Assembly (NCBI RefSeq): GCF_001050275.1
Contig: NZ_BBYA01000008.1
Span: 124,001 to 188,000 of the forward strand
Reading direction: 5' to 3'
DNA length: 64,000 nt
Source: Leptolinea tardivitalis
GTDB taxonomy: Bacteria; Chloroflexota; Anaerolineae; Anaerolineales; Anaerolineaceae
The notes under the pieces are model-generated. The model did not search any database, had not been told where the DNA came from, and saw only the letters and a program-made list of their open reading frames with translations. Positions 16,282 to 60,147 of the stretch are shown here, one piece after another. A program made the translations under genes and the position numbers. Each line of letters opens with the position of its first letter. The stretch's first letter is position 1.

Positions 16282-17433
16282 ATGAAGAAGTTTATATTTA
16301 CAATGGTTTCTGTGATGGCACTCGTTGCAATGCTTGCAGCTTGCGCTCCCGCTGCAACTCCTGCACCGGCTGCTGCCGAAGAAAAACCGGCTGCTGCTGA
16401 ACCCACCAAAGCCGAAGCTGCTGCCCCGGCTGCTGCTGAACCCACCAAAGCTGAAGCTGCTGCCCCGGCTGCTGCTGAACCCACCAAAGCTGAAGCTGCT
16501 GCCCCCGCTGCCAAAGTTGACCCGACCAAACTGAAATTCGTCACCGTTGTCAAACTCTCCGGTGTGGGCTGGTTCAACCGCATGGAAGAAGGTGTCAAAC
16601 AGTTCGCCAAAGATACGGGTGTCCAGGCCTTCCAGCAGGGTCCTGAAAAAGCTGATGCCGCCCTCCAGGTACAGGTTATTGAGAACAATATTGCCCAGAA
16701 AGTCGATGCCATTAGCGTCGTTCCTTTCCAGCCCGAATCCCTCGAACCCGTCCTGAAGAAAGCTATGGATGCCGGAATTATCGTGATCTCTCACGAAGCC
16801 TCCAATCAGCAGAACGTCAACTATGACATCGAAGCCTTTGATAATGCCGCTTATGGTGTTCACCTGATGGACAAAATCGGTGAACTGACCGGTGGCAAAG
16901 GTGAATATGTTGTCTTCGTTGGTTCTTTGACCTCCAAGACCCACAATGAATGGGTTGATGCTGGTATCGCTGAACAGAAAGCCAAATTCCCTGAAATGAA
17001 ACTGGTTGGCGACAAAAACGAATCTTATGACGATTCACAGAAAGCCTATGAAAAAGCCAAAGAAATCCTGAAGAAATACCCCGATCTGAAGGGTATGCAG
17101 GGTTCCTCCGCCAACGATATCGTTGGTTTCGGTCAGGCTGTTGAAGAAGCTGGCCTGAATGGCAAGATTGCTGTTGTTGGTACTTCCCTCCAGTCCATGG
17201 TTGGAAAACTGCTCGATACCAACGCTGTACAGATGGCTTCCTGCTGGGATCCCGCGATTGCTGGTCAGGCTATGAACAAATTAGCCCTGATGATCAAGAA
17301 CGGTGAAACCCCCAAAGATGGTATGGACCTGGGCCTGAAGGGTTATGAAAAATTGACCCTCAAGGGTAAAGTCTTCTACGGTTCAGCCTGGATTGACATC
17401 ACCAAAGACAATCAGAAAGATTACGCATTCTAA
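16282..17433 (+). CDS. Sugar ABC transporter substrate-binding lipoprotein
   Basis: This 383-residue lipoprotein has a signal peptide ending in the lipobox LAAC, an Ala/Pro/Glu/Lys/Thr linker with three 13-residue repeats (about residues 36-74), then a periplasmic-binding protein type-1 fold of the RbsB/RhaS/LsrB group (KLKFVTVVKLSGVGWFN onward, DAISVVPFQPESLEPVLKKA, YVVFVGSLTS). It captures a sugar or related compound outside the membrane and delivers it to the permeases encoded downstream. The strong ribosome site GAGGTGAAGG precedes the ATG. A hairpin after the gene probably stabilises its mRNA so that it is made in excess over the ATPase. Confidence 0.92.
   Translation: MKKFIFTMVSVMALVAMLAACAPAATPAPAAAEEKPAAAEPTKAEAAAPAAAEPTKAEAAAPAAAEPTKAEAAAPAAKVDPTKLKFVTVVKLSGVGWFNRMEEGVKQFAKDTGVQAFQQGPEKADAALQVQVIENNIAQKVDAISVVPFQPESLEPVLKKAMDAGIIVISHEASNQQNVNYDIEAFDNAAYGVHLMDKIGELTGGKGEYVVFVGSLTSKTHNEWVDAGIAEQKAKFPEMKLVGDKNESYDDSQKAYEKAKEILKKYPDLKGMQGSSANDIVGFGQAVEEAGLNGKIAVVGTSLQSMVGKLLDTNAVQMASCWDPAIAGQAMNKLALMIKNGETPKDGMDLGLKGYEKLTLKGKVFYGSAWIDITKDNQKDYAF
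16387..16503 (+). repeat. Three tandem 39-bp repeats in the lipoprotein linker
   Basis: Three nearly identical 39-bp units (16387-16425, 16426-16464, 16465-16503) encode PAAAEPTKAEAAA three times. They differ at a single silent site (gcc versus gct). The in-frame unit length means that copy-number changes by slippage would lengthen or shorten the linker between the lipid anchor and the binding domain without breaking the gene. Confidence 0.9.
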
Positions 17434-59209: not shown

Positions 59210-59521
59210 ATTATAACATTTGGAGATTACCTAATTCCCTTTCTCCCAGTAGAGAATAAGGATGCATATGATGTGAAAGAGCTTGAAATTCCATCTGAAG
59301 ATTCCTCCAACATGGTCGTGACAAAGTCGGGTGATCTGTTGATCATCGCTCAATCAGAATCTGGCGAACTTAATTTTCTCAATCCTTCCTCGGGAGAGGT
59401 AGTCTATGTGTTCCCCGTTGGAGGAAACCCGAAAAAGCTGGCTTTACAGTCAAATGACACCCTGCTCGCTGTGGCAGACAGGAAAAATGGAATTAGCATT
59501 CTGGGAATCCCCGGAGAATAA
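59210..59521 (+). pseudogene. C-terminal fragment of a beta-propeller-like protein
   Basis: A frame open from 59210 to a TAA at 59519-59521 encodes repeat-like strands such as SNMVVTKSGDLLIIAQ, LNFLNPSSGEVVYVFPVGG and DTLLAVADRKNGISIL, as in YVTN-type beta-propellers. There is no ATG at its head; a GTG at 59273 with AAGGA upstream is the only possible start and would give 82 residues. Such a short piece cannot form a propeller, so it looks like the end of a longer gene whose front was lost near the trpS promoter. It sits just before the tRNA-Lys promoter. Confidence 0.45.
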
Positions 59522-59541
59522 AATTCATTACATCGGTTTTG

Positions 59542-59570
59542 TTGACGCCGGGAAAAGTGCGTGATAGAAT
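59542..59570 (+). promoter_or_regulatory. Promoter of tRNA-Lys
   Basis: TTGACG (59542-59547) is 17 bp from TAGAAT (59565-59570), which places the start near 59577, about 9 nt before the mature tRNA. Confidence 0.7.
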
Positions 59571-59585
59571 ATTGCCCTGTTGGTT

Positions 59586-59657
59586 GGGCGCGTAGCTCAA
59601 TGGTAGAGCAGTGGCCTTTTAAGCCATTGGTTAAGGGTTCGAGCCCCTTCGCGCTCA
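59586..59657 (+). tRNA. tRNA-Lys(UUU)
   Basis: A full cloverleaf can be drawn. The acceptor stem GGGCGCG (59586-59592) pairs with CGCGCTC (59650-59656, one G-T) and is followed by discriminator A. The anticodon loop CTTTTAA carries TTT, and the T arm AAGGG-TTCGAGC-CCCTT is intact. CCA is not encoded. A terminator hairpin with a GAAA loop follows directly. The 3' part is the first copy of a tandem array. Confidence 0.95.
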
Positions 59658-60065
59658 CAAAGACCTGTCGAAAGACGGGTCTTTTGATTTAAATCCAGTA
59701 CCGATGGGAGGATCGGCATACTGGATAAGGGTTCGAGCCCCTTCGCGCTCACAAAGATCTGTCGAAAGACGGGTCTTTTGATTTAAATCCAGTACCGATG
59801 GGATCGGCATACTGGATAAGGTTTCGAGCCCCTTCGCGCTCACAAAGACCTGTCGAAAGACGGGTCTTTTGATTTAAATCCAGTACCGATGGGAGGATCG
59901 GCATACTGGATAAGGTTTCGAGCCCCTTCGCGCTCACAAAGACCTGTCGAAAGACGGGTCTTTTGATTTAAATCCAGTACCGATGGGAGGATCGGCATAC
60001 TGGATAAGGGTTCGAGCCCCTTCGCGCTCACAAAGATCTGTCGAAAGGCAGGTCTTTTGATTTAA
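59632..60065 (+). repeat. Tandem array of tRNA-Lys 3' ends with two hairpins per unit
   Basis: There are four full units (59632-59725, 94 bp; 59726-59816, 91 bp; 59817-59910, 94 bp; 59911-60004, 94 bp) and a partial fifth (60005-60065). Each holds the T arm and 3' acceptor strand of tRNA-Lys, then an 11-bp terminator hairpin with a GAAA loop, and, in the four full units, a second hairpin (8 bp plus 5 bp with a CA bulge). The first unit is part of the real tRNA. Units 3 and 4 carry a G-to-T change in the T stem. Antisense frames across it are artefacts. Confidence 0.95.
59659..59685 (+). terminator. tRNA-Lys terminator, first of five copies
   Basis: AAAGACC pairs with GGTCTTT, then a T-G wobble, then GTC with GAC around a GAAA tetraloop, and TTTT follows. 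Copies lie at 59753, 59844, 59938 and 60032. The last copy changes the wobble to a T-A pair. Confidence 0.85.
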
Positions 60066-60147
60066 TCTCAAATTTTCAGTTGCGAATACCTGGTTTTATT
60101 TCTTACGTTCAAGAAGTGAAAATACCAGTAATAGATACAATTAACGA

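Follow-up and report, generated by a model that had tools for sequence, protein, structure and literature searches.

We found that the tRNA-Lys(TTT) gene in the window, the whole stretch of 64,000 nucleotides of Leptolinea tardivitalis DNA analysed here, is followed by a tandem array of its own 3' end, and that arrays of this kind recur behind tRNA genes of Anaerolineales. These arrays share a common anatomy, occur at many tRNA species, have a sharp boundary 11 nt before the T loop, are linked to a small hairpin, and within a genome tend to share the loop of that hairpin. Our data suggest that the window array is probably a locally amplified, DNA-level repeat of this recurring kind and not the remnant of stacked islands. 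Islands and phages classically integrate at tRNA genes, and a copy of a tRNA 3' end is commonly taken as an integration scar. Here, 3'-end copies recur whose boundary is fixed and whose hairpin is typical of the genome, and no integrase is in sight. Such arrays could produce false island predictions and interrupt assemblies at tRNA genes, and they form a natural comparable set for studying how short repeats start and grow beside highly expressed genes.

The tRNA-Lys array of the window

The tRNA-Lys(TTT) gene is intact (59586-59658, plus strand; ARAGORN and Rfam), and its 3' end forms the first repeat of an array that Tandem Repeats Finder placed at 59628-60065 on the plus strand, with a period of 94, 4.7 copies and 95% matches. 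Unit lengths are 91-94 bp, one unit being 91 bp. Full matches (20 of 20) to the terminal 20 nt of the tRNA lie at +74, +165, +259 and +353 from the tRNA end, giving four extra 3' ends past the gene that end at 59752, 59843, 59937 and 60031. These data bear out the initial annotation, which had described tandem units of about 94 bp carrying the tRNA-Lys 3' end.

By reading, the tRNA stretch of a unit, from its T loop to its 3' end, is followed by a hairpin with a short run of T residues, a bulged second hairpin and approximately 11 nt of tRNA that directly precede the next T loop, all on the plus strand. The four copies of the T loop to the 3' end lie at 59732-59752, 59823-59843, 59917-59937 and 60011-60031. 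The terminator-like T-run hairpin was read at 59659-59685 in unit 1, where it is also present in the fold of the array, and recurs at 59753-59779, 59844-59870, 59938-59964 and 60032-60058. The second hairpin (CCAGTACCGAT..ATCGGCATACTGG, with a 2-nt bulge) was identified by reading and in folds at 59693-59726 in unit 1 and recurs at 59787-59817, 59878-59911 and 59972-60005. Homology to the tRNA begins approximately 10-11 nt 5' of the T loop (CTGGATAAGGG versus TTGGTTAAGGG), so that the 5' strand of the T stem is included in the repeat. The resulting 11-nt block, comprising the end of the variable region and the 5' strand of the T stem, lies at 59721-59731 in unit 1 and at 59812-59822, 59906-59916 and 60000-60010 in further copies; its boundary was measured in relatives and applied to the window array by reading. 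Upstream of the gene, a promoter-like TTGACG-17-TAGAAT lies at 59542-59570 on the plus strand, which is weak evidence alone given that one was found against 1.0 expected in shuffles, and the 52 bases 5' of the gene have 94% identity in a relative of the same genus (G003).

Folded as single-stranded DNA, the array greatly outscored dinucleotide shuffles (z -11.2; 0 of 100 as good) with both hairpins in the fold, while a 57-nt stretch limited to the second hairpin and a single tRNA end did not stand out from shuffles (z -0.84). A consensus terminator scan made no call at the T-run hairpin. Thus, of the unit described previously as carrying a terminator and a second hairpin, both hairpins stand, while the scan does not identify the first as a terminator. 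An Rfam search at E up to 5 over 59500-60120 returned tRNA only.

The setting is ordinary, with neighbors encoding a class I tRNA synthetase (W and Y type), a D-Tyr-tRNA deacylase, a VanZ-like protein and PPK2. Upstream of tRNA-Lys, a small frame of 82 aa (59273-59521) matches no Pfam family at E 0.01. The same gap holds another gene in two relatives of the genus (G001 and G003), where a small Rdx-family gene lies between trpS and tRNA-Lys (L021:2611-2859, minus strand, PF10262, E 3e-21; L022:7726-7977, plus strand, E 1e-20). This Rdx gene, with its in-frame TGA at the CxxU site, likely encodes a selenoprotein, and the 82-aa frame is unrelated to it. A truncated gene upstream had been offered as a hint of past rearrangement; local gene turnover is real, as the gap gene differs in relatives, but a link between it and the array would be conjectural. 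Elsewhere in the window, a 39-bp tandem repeat (16387-16511, 3.2 copies) could, by eye, encode an Ala-rich stretch.

Anatomy and recurrence of the arrays

In relatives, units have a canonical order: first come 11 nt of the tRNA that stop at the T loop, then a hairpin of the form TCCCC-N-GGGGATGNTA, and last the same tRNA from its T loop to its 3' end. We searched for the hairpin with a strict pattern (CCCCN{3,6}GGGGATGNTATTCGA), which matched in 69 of 400 genomes, and the reversed-pattern control matched in none. Among 30 loci with the strict pattern, 26 have their first matching unit 40-87 nt behind a tRNA, and these tRNAs cover eight amino acids (Lys, Arg, Glu, Gly, Val, Asn, Ser and Met); three of the other four lie near a contig end with no tRNA in view, and one is apparently unrelated. 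Further loci that we read carry the module behind tRNA-Pro and tRNA-Cys.

We collected 59 units and compared the 44 with a readable module, representing 11 anticodons, to their own tRNA. Identity to the tRNA is 0.66-0.95 across the 11 nt before the module and drops to 0.05 at nt 12. After the module, identity is 0.92-1.0 over 20 nt (n = 53), a value that is partly built in since units were picked by their match to the tRNA tail. The boundary is set from the T loop, as tRNA-Ser, which has a long variable arm, also has 10 or 11 nt. The module is 19 or 20 nt long in 38 of the 44 units. Its orientation was forward in 192 cases and reversed in none, a count that is biased because the forward pattern itself served to retrieve many of the loci.

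In an alignment of 45 of the 59 units, which omits 14 atypical or redundant units including the window's own Lys unit, the T stem pairs in 82% of cells and the inner hairpin in 91%. The T stem covaries, which is mostly tRNA inheritance. The inner hairpin has few two-sided changes, indicating that its conservation lies more in the sequence than in structure alone, and RNAalifold predicted no more than three of its pairs. We rejected an extended hairpin of seven pairs, which was weaker in this alignment than the T stem plus hairpin. The idea that the hairpin is an inverted copy of the T stem was also dropped, since units with a CTCTC stem retain the CCCC/GGGG hairpin.

This pairing, the strong fold of the window array, and the tRNA 3' end held likewise by the RtT repeats of Escherichia coli would suit a structured RNA, in which the array is co-transcribed with the tRNA and acts as a multi-hairpin trailer, a decoy or an attenuator, in the manner of RtT of tyrT; a decoy and a multi-hairpin RNA were also among the alternatives of the initial annotation. 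We consider this rather unlikely. The pairing of the T stem comes from the tRNA itself, and two positions of this stem are less conserved (0.66) than the outer block (0.86-0.95). Many units, as judged by eye, have a terminator-like hairpin of their own, so distal units would hardly be transcribed, and Rfam finds no family other than tRNA at the window array. In E. coli tyrT-tyrV (RtT, RF00391, tpr; NC_000913.3), as here, tandem repeats lie directly behind a tRNA gene and contain the last 19 nt of the tRNA with hairpin-like sequence before it. Unlike here, 178 bp lie between the two distal copies, the copy starts inside the T loop, and the TCCCC-N-GGGGATGNTA module is missing. The RtT model (RF00391) gave no match above its gathering score in the window or in five loci from relatives and from the window genome (L012, L053, L249, L247 and L268), and gave three in the E. 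coli positive control (L309). E. coli tyrT/RtT is the closest kind known to us, and we regard the present arrays as a variant of it.

The window array departs from the canonical order. In the genus Leptolinea, the hairpin (CAGYACC..GGCATACTGG) sits 5' of the 11-nt block instead of between the block and the T loop, and the strict hairpin patterns have no match anywhere in the genome of the window (G000). The kinship of the window array with canonical units therefore rests on resemblance, and we place it in the class, as a variant, by anatomy and company and not by sequence. The array at tRNA-Arg(GCG) of the same genome has the canonical order.

The window array is not a one-off. We compared the DNA downstream of all 46 tRNAs that Rfam identifies in this genome with the respective tRNA tail and found arrays at three, Lys(TTT), Arg(GCG) and Val(CAC), with six extra copies at Arg(GCG) and two at Val(CAC) at a threshold of at least 15 of 20. 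A 15-of-20 match at +307 from tRNA-Gly(TCC) was weak and was taken as chance. Within the genus, tRNA-Lys has four extra copies in the window genome, one in G001, and several degenerate ones in G003.

For a survey of tRNA-Lys we used Anaerolineales genomes at least 90% complete; the 100 places, which yielded 101 tRNA-Lys(TTT) genes, left out places fetched earlier, some with known arrays, and several at contig ends. Extra 3' ends occur within 1 kb of 22 of the 101 loci, and in none for the reverse-complement control. A gapped test detected them at 21 of 100 loci, with none in reverse-complement and shuffle controls. A reversed-sequence control matched at 7 of the 101 loci; all seven hold real copies, and their tail is nearly mirror-symmetric, for which reason the reverse complement was taken as the control. 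In two of the 22 loci (L173 and L181) the copies begin in the anticodon loop. These copy tests miss degenerate arrays, such as those at L190, L211 and L233, and a looser expression for the module matched 26 tRNA-Lys loci against 2 in the reverse-complement control. In relatives that have no array, the tRNA, a terminator-like hairpin and the flank follow in direct succession. The initial annotation had held that finding the array in this assembly alone would weaken it; arrays recur in relatives, both at these 22 tRNA-Lys loci and in the 69 genomes with the strict pattern. Its concern that the array might be an assembly artefact does not apply to this kind of feature, as similar arrays lie inside multi-megabase contigs of three other genomes (G001, G032 and G295). 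In three further genomes (G374:C100, G313:C80 and G382:C85), only 1-22 nt separate tRNA-Lys from a contig end, which the 3' side of the gene faces, as expected if arrays break short-read assemblies.

Across named genomes, a Lys-shaped pattern selected 51 stretches, 32 of which contain non-tRNA partial copies behind a tRNA (criterion 15 of 20). Thirteen of these 32 have Chloroflexota-type titles, and 19 come from others, for example, Saccharibacteria, sphingomonads, Pelagibacterales and an archaeon. The stretches outside the 32 comprise 14 with ordinary neighboring tRNA genes, four without a tRNA and one with a tRNA at a contig edge. The repetition of a tRNA 3' end behind its own gene is thus a widespread theme, and we claim the anatomy described here for Anaerolineales only. 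Six Saccharibacteria loci (L085, L094, L102, L104, L121 and L130) have a partial copy behind tRNA-Lys with a conserved hairpin CCCTCG-TTCTTCGAAT-CGAGGG before the T loop, and in L104 the same hairpin loop is also found behind tRNA-Val. Within the open-access literature, including passages of PMC3733652 and PMC12306157, we found no description of tRNA 3'-end arrays in Anaerolineales.

Attachment sites and islands

We asked whether the arrays are stacked attachment sites, left as a row of 3' ends by tyrosine-integrase elements that repeatedly integrated and decayed. As in the arrays, the tRNA attachment sites of tyrosine integrases include a same-orientation copy of the tRNA 3' end at a distance from the gene. 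The tRNA-Lys gene is also a real integration target, since in G003 an element of approximately 3.7 kb that encodes an integrase (PF00589, E 6e-20) separates tRNA-Lys from further 3' copies. The 11-nt block, the 7-nt T loop and the following arm would resemble the core site of a tyrosine recombinase.

Within the window genome, a recombinase search limited to the Phage_integrase family (PF00589) identified six genes, none of them on the three contigs that carry arrays (C8, C9 and C11), in agreement with the earlier observation that no integrase lies near the array. Three of the six adjoin other tRNAs, two at 0.5 and 1.3 kb from tRNA-Met (C10:180310) and one at 0.2 kb from tRNA-Asn (C3:97272), and neither tRNA has an array. 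The 434-bp array had no match in phage and plasmid collections.

Copies of the island type also have another boundary. They start at tRNA position 24 in G003 and at positions 23-31 in G007, G032 and G060, the last three being called islands by position only; inspection by eye of the listed frames of G007 and G032 revealed no integrase, and G003 is the case in which one was identified. Overall, island-type copies (these four together with L173 and L181) begin at approximately positions 23-33, near or in the anticodon arm, as attachment copies of tyrosine integrases do, whereas the arrays start 11 nt before the T loop. Array-type units lie past the far copy in G003 and G060 and adjoin the tRNA in G032, which fits arrays that are present independently of islands. 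Unlike attachment sites, the arrays carry no integrase or payload, and their units are mostly approximately 55-115 bp. No array-type end with a kilobase payload was recognisable in the 30 strict-pattern loci or among 52 matches, in 30 loci, to a pattern without the C arm, and every unit displayed bears the 3' end of its own tRNA. With no PF00589 gene on the array contigs, no phage or plasmid match, and a different boundary in island-type copies, the proposal of the initial annotation that the units resemble stacked attachment sites was not upheld, and we regard it as quite unlikely.

One viral contig (L307; IMGVR_UViG_3300005259_000061) begins with two canonical units that carry a tRNA-Gly-like 3' end (positions 1-140, the very edge), and its frames include terminase-, portal- and capsid-like ones by eye. 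The repeats may be host DNA beside a prophage.

The hairpin module and the proposed growth of the arrays

The tie of the module to tRNA repeats is strong but not complete. Without the last letters of the T loop, the pattern matched 18 further sites in 12 genomes versus 2 for the reversed pattern; among nine of these extra loci that we read, three have a tRNA and six have none within the 3-kb locus. The pattern without the C arm matched in 48 of 261 genomes and its control in none. Six of the 52 matches read for this pattern are without CCCC, comprising stem variants (L365 and L366), a longer module (L352), a contig start (L346), a degenerate case (L358) and one with no tRNA in view (L354).

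Hairpin loops tend to be shared within genomes. We compared 47 loci in 19 genomes among the strict-pattern matches listed: of the 40 pairs that share a genome, 15 have identical loops, whereas shuffles give 1.9 and 0 of 20000 shuffles reached that number. Inside one genus the effect is weaker, and among the matches listed 7 of 16 pairs are identical versus 2.1 (75 of 20000 as high). A wider list picked by hand, with 57 loci in 20 genomes and one locus represented by its minority loop, had identical loops in 29 of 67 pairs versus 4.3; the stricter count supersedes it. The size of this effect is approximate, since the genomes are related and the loci are those among the matches listed.

Shared loops, together with the single position of the module in repeats of many tRNA species, would also fit a mobile hairpin, namely a REP-like or single-strand-transposing element of 19-20 nt whose insertion point would be the T-loop border in partial tRNA copies. 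Double modules (L012 and L194), longer ones (L154 and L352) and some sites outside tRNA repeats point the same way. REP elements are described as palindromes tagged with GTAG and CGTC (PMC3733652), and like the module they are small, similar in size and alike within a genome. However, REPs are scattered through intergenic DNA, while the module is mostly found at one position in tRNA-derived repeats, which hold 26 of the 30 sites. By eye, moreover, the dispersed hairpins that we read have no common flank, GTAG is not in the module, and CGTC is in some units only. We therefore consider a mobile hairpin unlikely.

Local amplification, which we favor, would proceed from a unit of three parts, namely a piece of the tRNA itself (the 11-nt block and the part from the T loop to the 3' end), the original downstream sequence, in which a terminator-like hairpin may or may not be present, and the small T-arm hairpin. 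Events at the T arm of the tRNA, either misalignment or recombination, might create the first unit, and copy number might then rise or fall by replication slippage or unequal recombination between direct repeats. The hairpin could be kept alike within a genome by a trans-acting agent or by conversion between arrays. Replication slippage had been among the alternatives proposed initially, and near-identical units with varying copy number make slippage or unequal recombination the plain reading. The constant hairpin and the fixed 11-nt boundary, however, exceed what plain slippage predicts.

From its geometry, the position of the hairpin at the border of the arm and the T loop looks like that of a recombinase core site. 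A recombinase of the tyrosine or HUH type might read the 11-nt arm, the 7-nt T loop and the next arm and set a species-typical hairpin precisely where the first arm meets the T loop, building rows of cassettes without genes behind tRNA genes in the manner of a miniature integron. The T loop would bear a loose likeness to GTTRRRY of integron attC sites. We think this improbable; if true, it would mean a site-specific system acting on the near-universal T-arm sequence of Anaerolineales tRNA genes.

Some modules are doubled or nested (extra units 5 and 8 of L012, and L194, L154 and L352), either as tandem hairpins or with an TCGCGAAGCAC-like insert in a longer loop. The module contains an ATG, at which, by eye, a peptide might begin.
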